This document shows, piece by piece, positions 5,973-15,300 of a stretch of DNA of 54,539 nt. The notes under the pieces are model-generated. The model did no database searches, was not told the origin of the DNA, and saw nothing but the letters and a program-made list of their open reading frames with translations. Every line of letters begins with the position of its first letter. Position 1 is the stretch's first letter. This DNA is from Kiritimatiellia bacterium (GTDB lineage: Bacteria > Verrucomicrobiota > Kiritimatiellia > RFP12 > UBA1067): positions 1 to 54,539 of the forward strand of contig JAFRSR010000077.1 of NCBI GenBank assembly GCA_017427485.1, in the 5' to 3' direction. The translations under genes and the position numbers were made by a program.

Positions 5973-7101
5973 GGACGACCTCCTGTATCTCGCGCGCAGC
6001 GAGTCCGAGCGCGTCGCCGTCCGAATGGAGCCGCGCCATCACGGCGTCGAGCGCGCGCGACGCGCGCGCGCGCGCTTCTGCGTCGTTAAGCCAGGCCGAA
6101 AGCTGGGCGGCCACGGCCTCGGGCGTGAACGCCTCCTGCAGCAGCTCGGGCATCGGCGGCTCCACGCCGCTCTTCTCCGCGATCACGTTCGCGAGGCCGA
6201 TGTGCTTCACGCCCGTGATCACGCGCCGCGCGAACCAGGCGAGCAGCGCCGAGACGGCGTAGACCAGCACCGTGGGGCAACGCGCGAGCGCCGCCTCGAG
6301 CGTGGCCGTGCCCGACGCCACCGCCGCGCAGTCCGCCCGTCGCAGCAAATCGCGCGCGCCGCCCTTCACCACCTCCGGCGCAAACGGATCGTTCCGCACC
6401 GTAATCGTAGAACGGATCTCCGCCTCGGCCCGGTCGTTCGCCGCCGGAATCACCACGCGCAGGTCTTGCCGATTCAGCAGGCGCACAGCGTCAAGAAGCC
6501 GCGGGAGATGCCGCTGTATCTCGCCCACGCGGCTGCCGGGGAGGATGGCCAGGCAAGCCCCTTCGGGGTGGCGGGCCTCCGCGCCCGCAAATTCGTGGCG
6601 GCAACCTGCCGCCACCCCAACCTCTTTTTCTTCCTCAAAAACATCCACCATCGGATGCCCGATGAACACAGCGTGGAAATCCTTCCCTTCATAGTCCTTG
6701 AAAAGCGCGGGCTCGAACGGGAAGAAGCAAAGGAGGCGATTCACGGCAGCGGCCACCTTCGGGATGCGGCCCTGATGCCATGCCCACACCTGCGGACACA
6801 CGATGTGGACCGCGGGGATGCCGCGCGCCTTCGCGTAGGCGGCGAGCTTGAGGTTGAGGCCGGGATAGTCGATCGTCACCACCACGTCCGGCTGCCACTC
6901 GCGGATGATGCGCTTCATCGTGCGCTGCACGCCGAGGAAGAAGAAGAGACGCTTGATGACGGCCCAGAAACCCATCACCGCGAGGTCGGAGGTCTTGTAG
7001 CGGTCCTGGTAGGTGCGGAATTCGCAATCGGGCAAGGCGCGGCGCAGGCGTTCCGCGTACAGGACGCCCGACTCCTCACCGGCTAACAGCAGTACTTTCA
7101 T
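5962..7101 (-). CDS. lpxB: Lipid-A-disaccharide synthase, with in-frame palindrome insert
   Basis: A 379-aa GT19 enzyme that joins UDP-2,3-diacylglucosamine and lipid X into the lipid A disaccharide on the inner membrane. Seen: N-terminal MKVLLLAGEESG, DYPGLNLKLA, CPQVWAWHQGRI, FFPFEPALF, VFIGHPMVDV, LAILPGSRVGEIQRHLP, and the donor-binding AAVASGTATLEAALARCP. Between GHPMVDV and LPGSR the linker is lengthened by about 20 residues (EVGVAAGCRHEFAGAEARH), encoded by a palindromic DNA element at 6565-6618. A 17-bp dispersed repeat at 6391-6407 encodes ITVRN. Both keep the frame open. It starts 6 nt after the zeta partner gene and overlaps ybeY. Confidence 0.95.
   Translation of the reverse strand: MKVLLLAGEESGVLYAERLRRALPDCEFRTYQDRYKTSDLAVMGFWAVIKRLFFFLGVQRTMKRIIREWQPDVVVTIDYPGLNLKLAAYAKARGIPAVHIVCPQVWAWHQGRIPKVAAAVNRLLCFFPFEPALFKDYEGKDFHAVFIGHPMVDVFEEEKEVGVAAGCRHEFAGAEARHPEGACLAILPGSRVGEIQRHLPRLLDAVRLLNRQDLRVVIPAANDRAEAEIRSTITVRNDPFAPEVVKGGARDLLRRADCAAVASGTATLEAALARCPTVLVYAVSALLAWFARRVITGVKHIGLANVIAEKSGVEPPMPELLQEAFTPEAVAAQLSAWLNDAEARARASRALDAVMARLHSDGDALGLAAREIQEVVHAH
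6391..6407. repeat. 17-bp dispersed repeat, copy inside lpxB
   Basis: Exact copy of GTTCCGCACCGTAATCG on the plus strand. In the lpxB frame it encodes ITVRN, between the family's variable region and the conserved SGTATLE loop. Confidence 0.85.
6565..6618. repeat. Palindromic element inserted in frame in lpxB
   Basis: Outer 10-bp inverted arms GGGGTGGCGG (6565-6574) and CCGCCACCCC (6609-6618) are perfect. Inside are two hairpins: GCGGGC/GCCCGC (6571-6588) and a 9-bp stem GTGGCGGCA/TGCCGCCAC with 3-nt loop ACC (6595-6615). It is translated without disturbing the lpxB frame and falls in the linker between the two Rossmann-like halves. Confidence 0.85.
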
Positions 7102-7107
7102 GTCACT

Positions 7108-7440
7108 TCAGGGGTGCATCCAGGCAAGGTCGTCTTCAAGGGCCTGACGCCGGTCGGCGGCGAGGCGCTCCCATACGTCGGGCGTAAGCTCCAGTCCGGC
7201 GGCCTTGAACTGCGCGATCAAGTTATTCCGGCGCCATTCGCCCACGTCCTTCTTGCGCATTTCGTAGTCGGGACGCGTCCGGAGCGCCTCGTCCACGGTG
7301 TAGAGGTAGAGCTTGCCGTCCTTCATGCCCGGCACCATCTCGCCCGTGTCGCGGTACCCCTCGATCGCGTCCCACGACGCCTCGTCGAACGCGTCTTGCG
7401 CGTTGCGCGCGTCCACGGGCCAGTCCTTCCGGTCGATCAT
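7108..7440 (-). CDS. Small partner protein of the zeta-toxin-like kinase
   Basis: A 110-aa acidic protein with no recognised domain. The N-terminus resembles a substrate-like or antitoxin-like segment (DARNAQDAFDEASWDAIEGYRDTGE), and the C-terminus is helical (LTPDVWERLAADRRQALEDDLAWMHP). The start overlaps the kinase stop by ATGA, and lpxB follows 6 nt after the stop. By position it is the likely antitoxin or regulator of the kinase, but nothing in the sequence proves this. It does not look like the classic epsilon antitoxin. Confidence 0.7.
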   Translation of the reverse strand: MIDRKDWPVDARNAQDAFDEASWDAIEGYRDTGEMVPGMKDGKLYLYTVDEALRTRPDYEMRKKDVGEWRRNNLIAQFKAAGLELTPDVWERLAADRRQALEDDLAWMHP

Positions 7441-8030
7441 AGTCCAAGCTCCTTTCTCATCGGCTCCGCGAGGGCGGGGTCCAGAACGAGCGCCTCGCCG
7501 TTGCGCCTGTAGATCAGGCGCTGGATCGCGGGCACGGCATAGAACACCAGCAGCGTGTCGGCGAGCGCCGCATACGACTTCACGTTCGCGACGGAGCGCA
7601 CGTACCGGCGCAGCACGTCCGGCGTCGGCACGTCATGCCCGCCCGCGAGCACGCGGTGGCTGATGCGCAACGGCAGTGCCGCCGGCTCGGGCATCCAGAG
7701 GTAGTAGAGCGCAATCAGGTAGCCGCGCGCCTTCGCGTCGGAGAGCAGACGCAGGTGCCCGCGCCCGGAGAGCGTCGTCTCAAAGGCGAACGACGTGCGC
7801 GACTCGATGAGCTCGGCGATCCGCTCCAGCGTCAGCTTGCCCGCCTTGATGGCGGAGAGGCGGATGTCGGTCGGCGACATCCCCTGCGCCATGAGGTCGG
7901 GATTCACGTACTCCACAGCCCCCGCGTACTCAGGCAGGTACCTGAGCGCGAACGTCGATTTCCCGGAACCGTTCGGCCCCGCGACGACATGGCAGATAGG
8001 TCTCTCCAATCTCTCCAAAACTTCCTTCAT
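7437..8030 (-). CDS. Zeta-toxin-like P-loop kinase (leaderless)
   Basis: A 197-aa protein of the zeta toxin family. Family members phosphorylate UDP-N-acetylglucosamine or related sugars and poison wall synthesis, though chromosomal homologues may be housekeeping. Seen: Walker A GPNGSGKST at about residues 19-27, YVNPDLMAQGM (substrate-binding PD), FAFETTLSGRGHL (family FxxETTLS), and a C-terminal R-rich LRISHRVLAGGHDVP. The ATG is 8 nt downstream of TATAAT (8039-8044) with no ribosome site, so it is probably leaderless. It is first in an operon with its partner, lpxB, ybeY and yggS, an unusual setting for a toxin. Confidence 0.88.
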   Translation of the reverse strand: MKEVLERLERPICHVVAGPNGSGKSTFALRYLPEYAGAVEYVNPDLMAQGMSPTDIRLSAIKAGKLTLERIAELIESRTSFAFETTLSGRGHLRLLSDAKARGYLIALYYLWMPEPAALPLRISHRVLAGGHDVPTPDVLRRYVRSVANVKSYAALADTLLVFYAVPAIQRLIYRRNGEALVLDPALAEPMRKELGL

Positions 8031-8038
8031 CTGCGGAT

Positions 8039-8044
8039 ATTATA
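8039..8044 (-). promoter_or_regulatory. Extended -10 promoter of the zeta/lpxB operon
   Basis: The minus strand reads TGGTATAAT, an extended -10 element with hexamer at 8039-8044. No convincing -35 is present. The ATG follows 8 nt later. Confidence 0.6.
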
Positions 8045-8144
8045 CCATAACCCCCCGTTTTCCGCTCAGCCCAATTACCATACCATTACCAACCCCAATC
8101 GTTCCATCCCCCCAACATGTCATCACAGTACCTTCCCTCCACCT

Positions 8145-8161
8145 GTTCCGCGCCGTAATCG
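8145..8161. repeat. 17-bp dispersed repeat, left cluster copy 1
   Basis: GTTCCGCGCCGTAATCG, one mismatch to the consensus GTTCCGCACCGTAATCG, plus-strand orientation. Confidence 0.85.
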
Positions 8162-8188
8162 CACCCTTGGGCTCCCCTCTGCAATATC

Positions 8189-8205
8189 GTTCCGCACCGT
8201 AATCG
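8189..8205. repeat. 17-bp dispersed repeat, left cluster copy 2
   Basis: Exact match to GTTCCGCACCGTAATCG, 44 bp after copy 1. A partial copy with one base deleted (GTTCGCACC) starts at 8214. Confidence 0.9.
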
Positions 8206-8240
8206 CACACGCGGTTCGCACCTTCGAATTATCCGCTGAC

Positions 8241-8257
8241 GTTCCGCACCGTAATCG
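8241..8257. repeat. 17-bp dispersed repeat, left cluster copy 3
   Basis: Exact match to GTTCCGCACCGTAATCG, 52 bp after copy 2 and in the same orientation. Confidence 0.9.
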
Positions 8258-8270
8258 TACGCAAGGACCA

Positions 8271-8301
8271 CTCCAATGGAGATCGAAGGCCCTTTGCCTT
8301 C
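8271..8301. repeat. Twin hairpin
   Basis: CTCCA/TGGAG with a 1-nt loop (8271-8281), then after 3 nt GAAGGC/GCCTTC with loop CCTTT (8285-8301). Similar in layout to the other two-hairpin elements in the window. No T-run follows, so it is not an obvious terminator. Confidence 0.55.
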
Positions 8302-8432
8302 AACATGATTTCGTTACAATTCCCATACATTTCTCATACATTTCCTTTGAAATCTTTTGACAGTTTCGCCTATTCCCTTTGGGCAGCGGACATGGTAAGA
8401 TTTTCGGTGTCGGGACCAGAAGGGACAATCAC

Positions 8433-9503
8433 ATGAGAAAGGCCGTAGAAGAGCATCTGGAAAGCCGGGGTTGCCGCGTCGTGCGGCCGCCGGCCGAACT
8501 CGCGCCGCCCACGTTCGAGAGCCTGGTCGACGGGTTCCTCGTTCATGTGCTGCGTCTTGATTCGGAGAGCTACCGGCGAGCGTTCTGGCGCGAGGCGTAC
8601 CGCAACGGGCACACCATCGGGCACGTCCCGCACACGCTCGAGGGATTCTTCCGGCGCAACGCGCGCACCTTCGAGCAGCAGGTGTCGCTTCTCCTGACGG
8701 TCGCCGCGCTCTTCGGCGCCTATGCGGTGGCGACGCTCCTCTACAGGCGCCTCTCGCTCGTCGTTCGCCGCCTCCGGCGCCCGACATATTACGAGCGGGA
8801 ACGCGAACGGCGCCAGAAGCTCGCCGCCGAACGGCGCGAAATCCGCAAGCACTGCACGCTGAACCCGCGGCCGACCTTCGACGCAATCCGCGCGGCGCTC
8901 CGTGTCGCGCGCAACTCGCCCGAGGATGCGCTCCGGCTTGGCTCGCTCCTGGAGGACCTCGAGTGCTTCGTCGACAACACTCTCCGATTCGGCGCGGACG
9001 GGCAGATCGTGGGGCGCAGGGGTGGCATCAAGCGCCTGTTCCAGCGCGAAGCGCCCGACCTGTTCGAGAAATACTCCACAATCATGCGCTACAAGGCGAT
9101 GGCGAAGCGCTTCCGCCAGGCATGCGGCACGGGTGAACCCGTATCGCCCGCAATGCTCCTGCCCGTGCCCGAGGCGACCGACGCCACTCCCGATTCGGCG
9201 CCCGCCTCTCCGCCACCCACATCAGGTCCCGTTCCGGCGCCCGGACCCGCATTCGCCAGGCAAACGCTCGCGCCAGCCGCCACCGCGAACAGGCTGCAAA
9301 CTGTTCTTCCCCGCGCGCGAGAAGCCGCGCGGGTGATCCTGGGGGAGTGCCAGGGGACGCTCATCTCGCTCGAGGCCGCGCTCGCGTTGCGGCTCGATCC
9401 TGACTGCATACCCGCGCACGGGGAAGCCTACGCGCGCAAGCCCAGACTTCCGCGCATTCCGAAGCGTGTTGTCAGTTGGCTTCTCCGGCGTCGGGTCGCC
9501 TGA
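8433..9503 (+). CDS. Unrecognised basic protein with one membrane segment
   Basis: A 356-aa protein I cannot assign. Residues about 75-98 (QQVSLLLTVAALFGAYAVATLLY) form one membrane helix. A strongly basic coiled-coil-like stretch follows (YERERERRQKLAAERREIRK). A conserved-looking helical region comes next, with DLECFVDNTLRFGADGQIVGRRGGIKRLF and KYSTIMRYKAMAKRFRQ. After that is a Pro/Ala-rich linker (about 245-285) and a C-terminal helical block ending RRRVA. The ATG at 8433 has AGAAGGGAC 9 nt upstream; an ATG 54 bp further upstream has no such site. It is the only plus-strand gene in the first 20 kb and is flanked by inverted clusters of the 17-bp repeat. No HUH or recombinase motif was found. 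Confidence 0.75.
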   Translation: MRKAVEEHLESRGCRVVRPPAELAPPTFESLVDGFLVHVLRLDSESYRRAFWREAYRNGHTIGHVPHTLEGFFRRNARTFEQQVSLLLTVAALFGAYAVATLLYRRLSLVVRRLRRPTYYERERERRQKLAAERREIRKHCTLNPRPTFDAIRAALRVARNSPEDALRLGSLLEDLECFVDNTLRFGADGQIVGRRGGIKRLFQREAPDLFEKYSTIMRYKAMAKRFRQACGTGEPVSPAMLLPVPEATDATPDSAPASPPPTSGPVPAPGPAFARQTLAPAATANRLQTVLPRAREAARVILGECQGTLISLEAALALRLDPDCIPAHGEAYARKPRLPRIPKRVVSWLLRRRVA

Positions 9504-9927
9504 GGGCGCCTTTTAGCGCAAGCAAAGACCCATCAAATCCACATCCCCGAGTTTCTCGGCAGAACAAGACGATTCCGATAAGGAAGCGCCTAGTACGAAA
9601 TTGTCCGATACGGAATCACCCGGCCCGCGCTTGTTCTTTCCGTGCTCCCTGATCTCCACCTAGTCAACTCAGCGCCGAAATTGAGGGCCGCGGCGTAATA
9701 TTACGGTGCGGAACGAACGATAGCGCGCGGAGTTGCGCGATTACGATGCGGACTGGATCGTGGCATGTTATGTGACAAGACCACAGTGCGGAACCGTGGT
9801 GTGTCAGCGGGTAAGATTATGTCGTGGAACGGATTACGAAGGCATGATTGGCAAGATTATGGTGCGGAACAAAGCATGGATTGGATTGTTGCTCGTCAAA
9901 TGGCAAGCTACCGACAAACGTTGCGGC
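9504..9927. other. Intergenic region with right 17-mer array
   Basis: About 420 bp of lower GC than its neighbours. The first 190 bp show no gene or clear structure. Bases 9698-9870 hold the degenerate repeat array. Short plus-strand frames here translate the repeats (DYDADWIV, DYGAEQSMDWIV) and have no ribosome site or other gene-like feature. Confidence 0.75.
9698..9870. repeat. Degenerate 17-mer array, right cluster (5 copies)
   Basis: Copies of CGATTACGGTGCGGAAC, the reverse complement of the left-cluster unit, start at 9698, 9738, 9778, 9814 and 9854. They have 2, 2, 4, 5 and 2 mismatches. Start-to-start spacing is 40, 40, 36 and 40 bp, leaving gaps of 19-23 bp. The gap sequences at 9755 and 9831 resemble each other, so the true unit may be about 40 bp. 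Confidence 0.75.
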
Positions 9928-10590
9928 TTAATTTGCATCTAGGGCGGTTGAGATTTCACGGCAGAGATCGGGATACCATGCCAATGGCGAACGTTCCAGT
10001 TCGGGATTGCGCCCTTTACGCATATCGTATGGAGCGATGATGACCGAAACGTTCTTGATGCCGACCATCGCGGCGAGGTAGAAAATGTCCTCGATCGCGT
10101 CGTCGCCGACAGGTATGCAGCCAATCGTCACCGCCTTGCCGTGAATCATGATGTCGCCGCCGAGATTGGTGCGGCCGTCCGCCTGCGCGCGCTTCCTGTC
10201 CGTAGCATTCGGATACGAGACCTTCAGCGAAAGGTAGTAGCTGGAGTTCGGATTCAGGTATTCAATGCCGTAGATGCCTTCCGGGATTTGCCCGTCCCCT
10301 TCCCGAAGTTTCGGGCCCAGCGTCCCGCTGAACGCCGTCATCGGATAGATCCGTGGCTCCTTCCAGCCAGGCGCGTGTACTTCAACGGAACGCTCGTTCT
10401 TGAATACGAATATCCGCAACTTCCCGCCCGCGCTTTTCGCCACGCCTTTGAGACTCGGCTTCTTGGCGACAATCGTCGCCATTCTGCCTTCTATCGTGTG
10501 CCGCGCACGCGAAGCCGCACAAGCCCTCACACCGCCAGCGACGACGAATCCACCCACGGCAATTCCAATGACTAAGCCCCGTAGTTTCAT
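9928..10590 (-). CDS. L,D-transpeptidase-like (YkuD/YafK-type) exported protein
   Basis: A 220-aa protein with a signal or anchor segment (MKLRGLVIGIAVGGFVVAGGV). The YkuD catalytic motif is present near residue 150: DIMIHGKAVTIGCIPVGDDAIEDIFYL, with the His-Gly and the catalytic Cys of the G-C-x pattern. The spacing and the DxxIEDIF helix after it resemble the YafK/DpaA branch, whose E. coli member cleaves lipoprotein from peptidoglycan rather than cross-linking. It would act in the periplasm. AGGATGAGAGGAAAAAG precedes the ATG at 10590. It follows the SGNH gene by 40 nt, in the same direction and probably the same transcript. Confidence 0.85.
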   Translation of the reverse strand: MKLRGLVIGIAVGGFVVAGGVRACAASRARHTIEGRMATIVAKKPSLKGVAKSAGGKLRIFVFKNERSVEVHAPGWKEPRIYPMTAFSGTLGPKLREGDGQIPEGIYGIEYLNPNSSYYLSLKVSYPNATDRKRAQADGRTNLGGDIMIHGKAVTIGCIPVGDDAIEDIFYLAAMVGIKNVSVIIAPYDMRKGRNPELERSPLAWYPDLCREISTALDAN

Positions 10591-10630
10591 CTTTTTCCTC
10601 TCATCCTTTGGGGAGGCCAACGCGCACATG

Positions 10631-12376
10631 TCAGTTTTCAGGCGCGAACCAGCGGTTGAGCAGTTCTCCCAAAACCGCGAAGCCGCGTTCGTTCGCGTGC
10701 ACGACATCGCGCATAAACGCCCCGCGTGCCATCTTGGAATCGCGGATGAACACGCCGAGCGGACCCGCCATGTCGAAGAACGCGCATTTTTCCTCGGCGG
10801 CGATCCGCTCGATGATGGCGCGCGGATTCGGCGTCGTATGGTCGATCTGCGGCGTCCAGGCCCGATTCCACACATTGGCCTCCGAACCGAAGACGGGCGT
10901 GAGGAGGAGAAACTCCGTATCCGGCTTTTCAGCACGGATCTGCCGCACCACGTCGCGCATCTTCGAAGGATCCGGACGATGGGAAATGCCGCCGATCATC
11001 ATCAGGTCCGGCTTGTACTTGAGCGCCCAATCGCGCACGCGGTTCTCCTGCGCATACCAGTCGCAGCCCGTGCTGCCCCGTACGCTCACGACTTTGCGGA
11101 TGCGGCACTTCGGATAGCGCTTCATCAAGAGCTCCTCGAACCGGGAAGACGCCGTGTCGTTGACGATGCTGTCGCCCAGCATGACGATCGTCAGGTTCCC
11201 TCCCTCGCGGAGACGGCGCACCGTCTTGGGAATATACTTGAATCGCCCGGACGGCGGTTCGTAGGTCATCGGCGGCAGAGCTTCCAGCTTCAGGCGCATC
11301 CGCTCAAGGGGCGAACGCGTCTCCTTCGGCACCTTGACGGAACCGCTGAGCGAGAAACCGACCAGGCGCAACGGCGCATCGTCCCGCACCTCGAGAGTCA
11401 ACATGTGCTCACGCGCCGGGTCAAGTCCCTCGAAAAGCGGCGTATGGCGCAGGAACGCCTTCCCGCCTGCCGGCGGCGCAACCACACGCGGCGCACCCCC
11501 GTCGACCGTGGCGACGAATGCCGACGACTGCGGCGTCGCCTCGTCGAAAACGCCGACTTCGCCGCCCGTGAACGTCAGCGTCACCTTCGCGCCCCTGCGC
11601 TTCGCGTCGATGACATGGCGTATCTGCTGGACATTCGGGCGCTGCCAGCCGAGCCATCCGTCATCGAACCGGACCTCTGGATGCTCGTAGGAGACGATCT
11701 GGGGACGCAGCTCCGCACCCGGATGCAACGGCGGCGGAAGCTTGCGCGGCACGGGCTTGGCCGGCACGACCGCATCCTTGAAAAGCGCGGCGGCAAACGC
11801 CGTCAGACGGGCGGAACGCTCTGCCGCGTCCTTCGCATCCGTCAAGTCGAGCGTGGAAATGCCGTAGTGATCCGCAACCTTCTCGGCCTCGGCCACGTAA
11901 GGGGAAGGCGTCGTATGCAGGATGACCACGCTATGCGTCGCACGGTAGCTGTAGATCGCCCGCACGAGATTCTCGAGGTAGGTCGCCTCGCGATTCACGT
12001 CGCCCCGCGCACCCGTCGCAGAGTAATCGAGCACGGCGAGATAACCGCTGCAGACGCGTTCCCCGTAGATGGCCTGTCCGTTCACGCACGAGTAGCGCGC
12101 AAAACGCGCCCCCTCCGGTTCAGGGTAGACATGCGGAATCGTCCGCACGTCCAAGTCCTTCGCCACGATGCGTGCGAACTCGATCCACGGCGTCGACTTC
12201 GAATCTCCCAAACAGAAGAAATACTGATTGCCCGTCACGTTCCGCCTGGCGAACAATGCGGCGTTCGGCACTCCGTTCCGCACCCTAATCGCGGGCGTAG
12301 CCGCGGCCGCCTCCACGGCCAGCAACGCGACAAGCATTTTGAAGTGTCTTGCCATCTTGATCATTTTACCGCTCAT
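10631..12376 (-). CDS. Exported SGNH/GDSL hydrolase with duplicated SGNH-like region
   Basis: A 581-aa protein with a short N-terminal signal (MARHFKMLVALLAVEAAAA). The C-terminal ~200 residues form a full SGNH domain: GDS block IVMLGDSIVND, Gly block MMIGGISH, and terminal DVVHANERG carrying the Asp-x-x-His pair. The N-terminal part has a second GDS-like block (FFCLGDSKSTPW) and VVILHTTPSP but no clear His block, suggesting a decayed or non-catalytic first copy. A beta-rich linker separates them. Such enzymes deacylate glycans. ATG at 12376 overlaps the stop of the upstream gene by ATGA. The 17-mer at 12275-12291 encodes IRVRN just after the signal peptide. Confidence 0.8.
   Translation of the reverse strand: MSGKMIKMARHFKMLVALLAVEAAAATPAIRVRNGVPNAALFARRNVTGNQYFFCLGDSKSTPWIEFARIVAKDLDVRTIPHVYPEPEGARFARYSCVNGQAIYGERVCSGYLAVLDYSATGARGDVNREATYLENLVRAIYSYRATHSVVILHTTPSPYVAEAEKVADHYGISTLDLTDAKDAAERSARLTAFAAALFKDAVVPAKPVPRKLPPPLHPGAELRPQIVSYEHPEVRFDDGWLGWQRPNVQQIRHVIDAKRRGAKVTLTFTGGEVGVFDEATPQSSAFVATVDGGAPRVVAPPAGGKAFLRHTPLFEGLDPAREHMLTLEVRDDAPLRLVGFSLSGSVKVPKETRSPLERMRLKLEALPPMTYEPPSGRFKYIPKTVRRLREGGNLTIVMLGDSIVNDTASSRFEELLMKRYPKCRIRKVVSVRGSTGCDWYAQENRVRDWALKYKPDLMMIGGISHRPDPSKMRDVVRQIRAEKPDTEFLLLTPVFGSEANVWNRAWTPQIDHTTPNPRAIIERIAAEEKCAFFDMAGPLGVFIRDSKMARGAFMRDVVHANERGFAVLGELLNRWFAPEN
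12275..12291. repeat. 17-bp dispersed repeat, copy inside SGNH gene
   Basis: GTTCCGCACCCTAATCG on the plus strand, one mismatch to consensus. Encodes IRVRN immediately after the predicted signal-peptide cleavage region. Confidence 0.8.
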
Positions 12377-15300
12377 TTCTTTGTGTGCTCTTTGATGAAA
12401 TCGGCGCGCTCGCGCGCGGCGTACTTCACGCGCTTGCCCTGGAAGTGGAGGAAGATCGCCTTCTCCTCGTCCGTCCAGGTGTTCGCCTCGGCGAAGGAGC
12501 CGGCGAACGGGCAGAGCAGGTCGATCCAGCATGCGAACACGCGCTTCTCGTTGTCGGTGAGCTTCACGCCGTGGTGCGCGCCGTCGAACTTCTGGAAGAT
12601 CTCGCTCTTGCACGAGCCGATGTGGTACGGCGGCAACATCATCGTGCGGCTGCGCGGCTTGAGCCACTTCATCCACTTGCAGGCGTCCGGATTGCCGTGC
12701 GCCGTGAGGTTCACGTAGCTCTGCGTCCAAGCGCGCTTCGGGTTGTAGTAGTTCTTCGAGATGCGCCACACCTTGTCGTCGGGGAACGGCGCGCCCGTGA
12801 GGTTGAGCGTCGGGTGCTTCGCGTCGTGGCAGCGCGTGCAGTTGCGGTCGAGGATCGGCTGGATCTCGCGGCGGAAGCTGAAGCCGTCCACGGGCGCATC
12901 GGGGTCCGTGGAGCGCGCCGCGTTCACGCCGAGGAAGTTATCCGTGCTCGCGTACCACTTCTCGGTGCGCAGGCGCTTCACGAGCGGGTGTTCCTTCGTG
13001 CCGTTCGCGAACGGCTTCAGCGTCTGCGCGGGCTTCTTCATCGCGGCGGTCACGTTCCGCGAATCGGGCGGCAACGCGCCGCGCTTCGGCTCGTGGCAGC
13101 CGATGCAGCCGAAGTATTCGCCCGGCTGGAGCGTGGCCCAGCTGCGCATCGACTGCACGCACTTTCCCTCGCCGTCGAGCAGGTGGAAGAACACGGCCTG
13201 CCGCGCGGGCACCTTGAAGAGGCAGCTGCCGTCCTCCTCCACGTCCACCTCGCCGAGCACGTGCTTCACGTCCCACGCGCCGGAGTTGAGCGATATGGGC
13301 GTCTGGTTCAGGCCCGTCTCGTACTCGCCGCCGTTCCCGCACCAGCCGAGGCGCGCCGTGCGATATTCGAGCGCCATCACGCGCAGCTTCTTCACCGTGC
13401 CGCGCGGAATGCCCTGGAGGCCCGGGCCGAGGTAGACGTCCTGCACGTAGAACGTGCCGTCGTTCTCCTCCGCGTGCGCGAGGTCCACGCGCTGGACGGG
13501 CTTCTCGCGCGGCATCACGGGCACGATCCTTCCCACGCACTGCCGCCAGTCGTAGGCGAGCAACTCGCGCGCGCCGTCCGCGTTCTGCCAGTACCCGCCG
13601 AAGCGCGGCCAATAGGGACCGTACATCATGCAGCAGCCCTCGGGCTGGAAGGAGACGAGGTAGTCCGTCTCGCCGAACGCGAAGCACGAAGCCCACTGCG
13701 GGCCGTCCTGGCCGAAGATGTCAATGCGGAAGTCGTTCCACTTGCGCGGCTTCACCTCCTGCCGGTGGCGGCCGGGCGTGCGGTCGGGCGCCGCGCCCGC
13801 CACGAACTCGATTCCCTCACCGGCCTGCGTGCCCACGAGGCGGTCGATGAGCGCGAGCTTGCCCTTGTACGGCGCATGGTGGCCCGCGATGAGCGCGAGC
13901 AGCTTCTGCGTGCCGGGGACGGGCGTCGCGTGGAGGATGGAGCTCGGGAAGTCCGAGTTGTTGCCGTACCATTCGGTCTGGCCCGTGCCGTCGGGATTCA
14001 TCACGATGAGCGGATGGAGGTAGAGCGCAGTGCGGTCGTTGTATTCCCAGCGCGTGAACACGACGCGCCCGTCCATCGTCACCTGCGGGAGGTCGCTCAT
14101 CAGCTCGTCGGTCGTGAGGCGGCGCAGGAAGGAACCGTCCGCCCGGCAGCGGTAGATGTCGCCGCCCGCGCGGTACCAGCAGTCGCAGATGCGCGAGAAG
14201 CGCGTGGAGGTGAACACGATGTCGCCGTTCGGGAGCCAGACCGGCTCCGTGTCCGTGACGGCCAGGTCCTTGCCGTCCGCGCCCTTCTCGGGGAACGTGA
14301 TGCGCACGGGTTTGCGCATGGCGAGGTCCATCGTGTAGAGCGACACGCAGTCGTTCGTGTAGTTGTCGCGCATGGCGAAGACGAGCGTCTTGCCGTCCCA
14401 CGAGAGGTTAACGTTCGCGATGAGGCCCTGCGGTTTGTCGATCAGCACCTCGTGCGAGATCGTACCGTCCGCGTTCACCGTGCCGAGACAGAGCTGCGAG
14501 CCGATCTCCGTCATCGGCATGCCGTCGGTTGAATCCTCCCGGCTGTCCGACCAGCCCTTGCAGTTGCCGCATTCGGTCTTCACCTGGTCGTCCCACTGGT
14601 CGTACGCGCTCACGAGCCCCTGCTCGCCGCCGAACACGTGGTTCTTCGTGTAGACGAACTGCGTGGCCTTCGCGCGCAGCTTCGCGAGACGCGCCTGACG
14701 GCGCACGGCGCACGCGCGCAGGTAGAGGTCGCGCCAGCGCGGGTCGCGGCCCACGGCCTCGGCGACCACGAGCGCGCCGAACTCGGAGAGGAACTTCTCG
14801 CGCACGTCGCCCTCCGGCACGCCCGCGAGCGCCTTCGCCACCATCTTGCGCTCCAGCTCGCCGTCCTTCGCCGAGGTGAACACCTTCGCGACGTTGAGCC
14901 CGGCGTCCTGGTAGATCCAGTCGCGTTCCAGTCGCTCGCGCGGGAACGCCACGTCGTTGGCGTTGGGAGCGGGCGCATCCGACGGCAGCGCGTCGAACGC
15001 CGCCACCTCCGCGATCTGGCAGTTGTACCACTTGCCGTCGCCCGAGATCGGGTCGCCGTGCATCCGCGCCCACTCCCACATCACGTTCGTGAACCAGCCG
15101 TTCCGGATCGGCTTGCGGTTCGCGTCGTTCACCTGCACCTTCAGGTAGCGAGCCTTCGTCTTCGGCCACGTGACGTAGGCCGCGTAAGAGTTGACGACGG
15201 GCGGCAACGCGACTTTCTCCGCAAGCGGCACGAGCCCTTGCGTCCCCTTCCCGTCGGCGCACGCCCACACGCTCACGTCCGACGCCATCGTCGGCGCCCA

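Follow-up and report, generated by a model that had tools for sequence, protein, structure and literature searches.

In the window analysed here, a 54,539-nt stretch of DNA from a Kiritimatiellia bacterium, a gene of no known family (P0001, 8433..9503, plus strand, 356 codons) is enclosed by inverted clusters of a 17-bp repeat. We consider it rather probable (roughly 60%) that gene and repeat form a small mobile module, REPtron-like in layout, whose protein is unrelated to RAYT, recognises the repeat and promotes its spread. The repeats face outward on both sides of the gene, in distant subfamilies the repeat is an imperfect palindrome and the sequence shared among copies begins at the upstream repeat and ends near the stop codon, and the dispersal of the repeat is linked to the gene.

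As the preliminary description had it, the 17-mer GTTCCGCACCGTAATCG occurs twice exactly and once with a single mismatch upstream of the gene, and its reverse complement forms a degenerate downstream array (9698-9870), which comprises five copies with a pitch of 36-40 bp. In the direction away from the gene the unit reads CGATTACGGTGCGGAAC, with three copies upstream on the minus strand (the outermost, 8145..8161, with the motif CGATTACGGCGCGGAAC; the second, 8189..8205, and the innermost, 8241..8257, both exact) and five downstream on the plus strand (9698..9714, 9738..9754, the degenerate copies 9778..9794 and 9814..9830, and the outermost, 9854..9870). A degenerate, inward-facing copy (TAAGATTTTCGGTGTCGGGACC, 8396..8417, plus strand) lies directly before the start codon, and its counterparts precede the start at three other loci (L073, L080 and L081). 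The window holds nine matches to the 17-mer at three or fewer mismatches, compared with a mean of 0.43 and a maximum of 3 in shuffled sequences; none of 100 shuffles reached nine, and a chance origin is therefore excluded. Single copies had also been described as scattered through the window. Three further copies are present, at 6391 (lpxB), 12275 (a GDSL-lipase ORF) and 29489 (a GH106 rhamnosidase), but all lie within coding sequence, and the first two are probably codon coincidences, since they read as ITVRN and IRVRN, respectively; dispersed intergenic copies are located elsewhere in the genome, outside the window. An Rfam scan of positions 6000-12500 gave no match. Beside the element, within 7108-8030, a Zeta-toxin-like gene (7437-8030, minus strand) overlaps a 110-aa ORF without a Pfam family, and the two are possibly a toxin-antitoxin pair.

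The arrangement recurs around homologues. The genome that contains the window (G000; 6.3 Mb in 446 contigs, 90% complete, 7% contamination) carries two more distant homologues and, on contig C144, a 75% identical paralogue with three upstream and five downstream repeats as in the window. All close homologues with flanks, from G000, G005, G006, G009, G011 and G013, have outward arrays of 2-9 repeats with a pitch of ~38-40 bp; at L074, where the contig ends on the 5' side of the gene, no downstream repeats were seen. Near the gene at 98 loci, motif matches of at least 12/15 numbered 97 outward and 6 inward, with 2 for the reversed control, a tally to which the close homologues supply most matches. 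Among distant homologues, best upstream scores of 12 or more were outward in 21 cases and inward in none, and each tested subfamily has its own outward-facing repeat variant. The expectation of dense clusters beside homologues held, since inverted clusters flank every close homologue that no contig end cuts; not all dense arrays adjoin the gene, as arrays without it were also found (L109, L134, L294 and L298). At L294 the units measure ~100 bp, and L298 (G026:C82:9000-9500) consists of nine tandem 53-bp units with the cognate repeat and no gene nearby. A CRISPR-like array was rejected, the repeats being degenerate, their spacing variable and the gene without a cas-like family match, and an iteron or replication origin was set aside, as the copies are chromosomal, multicopy and inverted.

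The limits of the shared sequence are best seen in the distant subfamilies, where the gene sits between an inverted pair of 25-mers (ATGAGATTACGGTRCGTATGAAATC or a variant), the second of which falls within the ORF, at its 3' end, and encodes NEITxRxK. In an alignment anchored on the upstream repeat, with 17 distant copies and the window as its 18 sequences, identity was 79% in the repeat, 67% across the adjoining 15 bp on the inner side and 25-27% outside, a fall that makes the upstream repeat the left edge of shared sequence; on the right side, identity has dropped to chance level no more than ~80 bp from the repeat, close to the stop codon. Upstream, the repeat forms an imperfect palindrome of 29 nt with 8-bp arms and a 13-nt spacer, and the conserved head of the repeat in the distant-subfamily alignment is (A)TGAGATT. 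The arms covary: pairing was found in 76.3% of cells vs 71.2% after shuffling and in 35-55% in slid controls, and the score of 0.239 vs 0.156 was reached in 0/500 shuffles, a figure that is not a probability because the main swap (U-A to A-U, pair 7-23) may go back to a small number of events. In the window-type repeat the palindrome arms are eroded. At L268 (G000:C163), a third 25-mer copy lies at locus position 1240, in the linker region of the gene, between the flanking copies. By eye, the upstream copy in the distant subfamilies lies just 5' of a promoter-like TTGCCT...TATCAT preceding the ATG. An RNA leader element is unlikely in these subfamilies, with the palindrome upstream of the -35-like box (again by eye).

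Beyond the flanks of the gene, the repeat is dispersed through the genomes that carry it, in the tens of copies that had been anticipated. In G000, coding and intergenic sites pooled, 52 copies were counted at up to two mismatches vs 1 for the reversed control. Variant A (GATTAYGGTGCGGAAC, at most one mismatch) reaches 28-82 copies in exactly six genomes, those with close homologues (42 in G000, 28-82 in the five others); counts are 0-12 in the rest of the family, and G100, a genome with its own homologues, has 19. Variant C (GAGATTAYGGTGCGGACGAAATC, at most two mismatches) reaches 14-82 copies in each of 11 genomes, every one of them gene-positive, and is absent from other families of the order and class. 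Within the family, at least eight copies of A and C together occur in 19/41 gene-positive vs 0/46 gene-negative genomes (Fisher P=3.5e-8; Spearman 0.70), P values that are optimistic because the genomes are related and hence not independent data. Neither of the outcomes named beforehand as telling against the proposal, a low genome-wide copy number or homologues never flanked by the repeat, was observed. Points that do count against a mobile module are the few copies of variants A and C in 22/41 gene-positive genomes, and the dispersed copies that are codon coincidences or parts of longer repeated contexts.

Such coding copies, the three scattered ones of the window among them, would fit mere coincidence, the 17-mer being favoured by codon usage (ITVRN) and by duplicated intergenic DNA. 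For the gene-flanking copies this is already refuted, and overall we give it next to no credence: controls are near 0, orientation is consistent, the boundary profile argues against it, and many single copies lie between genes, with flanks that are unrelated. In two G000 loci (L287 and L289, on C213 and C242), the repeat stands at the start of a reading frame, where ATGAGATTACGG.. gives MRLR.. N-termini before a signal-peptide-like sequence, and at L138 (G011:C84) a signal-peptide-like start (LFRTVIS) contains a reverse copy; some protein N-termini may therefore derive from repeats. Other abundant palindromes unrelated to the 17-mer, e.g., GCCGCCAAGATGGCGGC, recur between genes (L027, L030 and other G000 and G011 loci) and may belong to other repeat systems, perhaps those of resident Y1 transposases.

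Comparison of related genomes bears on mobility. In G006, the site orthologous to the window copy lacks the gene; both flanks are there (88-93% identical), together with two repeats oriented as in the downstream array, and this is either a remnant or a place where repeats were already present when the gene arrived. Three copies in G011 are 86-91% alike across the gene and the upstream array, and their flanks differ. A single 40-bp unit with a complete palindromic repeat distinguishes G000:C191 from G006:C125, which makes this the single clean presence/absence site for a solo repeat, although it could instead reflect deletion. For two solo repeats in G011, the flank comparisons (L124 and L132) gave synteny breaks at or beside the repeat, not clean empty sites. 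Target-site duplications were not seen at one solo site or, by eye, at window-type ends, which counts against the module reading, as do the single clean solo site and the breakage of MAG assemblies at these repeats. Between two very close genomes (L031 vs L070/L237; G000:C144 vs G005:C512 and G005:C760), the downstream array marks a synteny break, with the upstream flank 97% shared and the downstream flank different.

Homologues were identified in 54/144 relatives, with a maximum of 14 per genome. A scan of 84,980 species, each represented by one genome, confirmed 94 stretches; the 80 of these that were listed come from Kiritimatiellae, Lentisphaerae, Verrucomicrobia or gut MAGs, a range that we sum up as Kiritimatiellae-type gut MAGs. 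The relatives belong to Kiritimatiellae MAGs, mostly from ruminant guts. No relative of the gene was found among IMG/VR viral contigs. One ORF, at L106 (G012:C398), fuses a histidine kinase that is truncated inside its HATPase domain with the C-terminal portion of the family core; because it may be an insertion or an assembly chimera, it was left aside.

The protein itself consists of a hydrophobic stretch (residues ~84-102), a conserved core (~112-250), a Pro-rich linker and a conserved C-terminal end. The hydrophobic stretch is present in the window type and many others, and variant B and C subfamilies have no comparable one. Across 35 members, eleven residues show little or no variation: R135, P147, G170, D175, E177, D181, G190, R195, G198, Y214 and P236. 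Judging by dN/dS values of 0.15-0.25, including those between paralogues within one genome, the protein is under purifying selection. The predicted structure of the core (139 residues, 79 sequences, pLDDT 85.7) has helices and a small beta hairpin. Searches of the family against Pfam, NCBIfam, PHROGs and PADLOC gave chance-level matches only, with no transposase match in the first three, and a sequence-profile search of the PDB gave nothing usable. Foldseek searches of the core domain against the PDB and BFVD gave no match at E<=0.001, and VIA-align Z stayed below 3. The preliminary description had compared the layout to REPtrons while noting a protein without a RAYT motif, and this was borne out: the family has no Y1_Tnp match and no HUH motif, and no alignment column has at least 60% His among the 35 members. 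That no recognisable nuclease or transposase fold or motif was found in the protein counts against the module reading.

If the gene and repeat are such a module, the protein would bind the repeat, either as a single strand in folded form or as a site for a dimer; binding would fall to the mostly helical, conserved core, in which D..E...D, an R and a Y are invariant. During movement of the gene, the repeats on its two sides would serve as ends, and the protein, whether it cuts DNA itself or recruits host enzymes, could act in trans on single repeats and thereby spread them, with tandem arrays arising from repeated capture or from recombination between repeats. More tentatively, the protein might be the founding member of a novel group of DNA-processing enzymes, one that recognises hairpin-like repeats and has independently evolved a REPtron lifestyle without HUH, DDE, serine or tyrosine recombinase chemistry.

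Several of the same features would also suit a DNA-binding regulator or membrane-tethered chromosome organiser, for which the dispersed repeats would be binding sites and the flanking copies a means of autoregulation, with no mobilisation. The upstream repeat adjoins the gene's own promoter in the distant subfamilies, purifying selection is strong, the hydrophobic stretch of the window type and many others would suit a membrane tether, and the palindrome is compatible with a dimer site too. However, 2-14 gene copies stand at different places in a genome with homology that stops at the repeat, two copies are inverted with one of them within the 3' end of the ORF, tandem arrays exist without the gene, the variant B and C subfamilies have no comparable hydrophobic stretch, and gene presence is patchy. 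We regard such a regulator as unlikely. Noc, the nucleoid occlusion protein, is membrane-associated and has tens of dispersed short sites, and in this it resembles the system described here; by contrast, the present gene is multicopy, patchy, mobile and bounded by its own sites, and has no ParB-type match.

Y1 transposases move REPs in other bacteria, and a resident enzyme of this RAYT-like kind might move both repeats and gene, with the gene a passenger carrying the ends. Y1_Tnp is indeed present in 112/144 relatives, G000 included, and this abundance also weighs against the module reading. Yet the repeats track the present gene, whereas Y1_Tnp occurs in most gene-negative genomes as well and was not found in the gene-positive G044 and G075; in addition, the listed Y1 matches (G000, G006, G011 and G013) are on contigs other than those with listed repeat copies, and no RAYT gene was seen between these repeats. 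A passenger gene is accordingly still less probable than a regulator.

The mobile module that we favour resembles several known systems in part. In REP/RAYT systems, the gene lies between two inverted short palindromic repeats, cognate repeats are dispersed between genes, and repeat and protein diverge together (PMC2817692, PMC8266576). The present system shares the inverted flanking repeats, the gene-linked dispersed cognate repeats and, in the distant subfamilies, the palindrome. It differs in a protein without HUH motif or Y1_Tnp match, in a repeat without a recognised GTAG/CGTC head, and in having one repeat inside the ORF, 2-9 repeats per side (window type) and several gene copies per genome. 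It is therefore REPtron-like by anatomy but not a REPtron, given the same layout and a protein that fails the HUH test. Insertion sequences with terminal inverted repeats and MITEs offer a ~1-kb one-gene unit, inverted ends and gene-less copies, as here; by contrast, the present system shows neither a recognised transposase domain nor, at the sites inspected, a target-site duplication, and its "end" is only 17-29 bp and often in tandem arrays. The ends of Tn7-like and Mu-like elements contain several transposase sites in the same direction and are inverted relative to each other, which also applies here, but no TnsB/MuA-type protein is present, the pitch is ~38-40 bp, and single copies of the site are also dispersed through the genome.

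Many bacterial genomes are shaped by short palindromic repeats, to which, as far as we know, only the RAYT gene family is tied. In the literature accessible to us, no such system was described for Kiritimatiellae. Since the layout is that of a REPtron and yet the protein is unrelated, a repeat-spreading system may have evolved independently here. A second, unrelated gene family with this layout would show that systems of this kind have more than one origin, would possibly provide a new DNA-processing enzyme, and would raise the question of what favours partnerships between a repeat and a gene. It would, moreover, account for dispersed short repeats in abundant, mostly uncultured gut bacteria.
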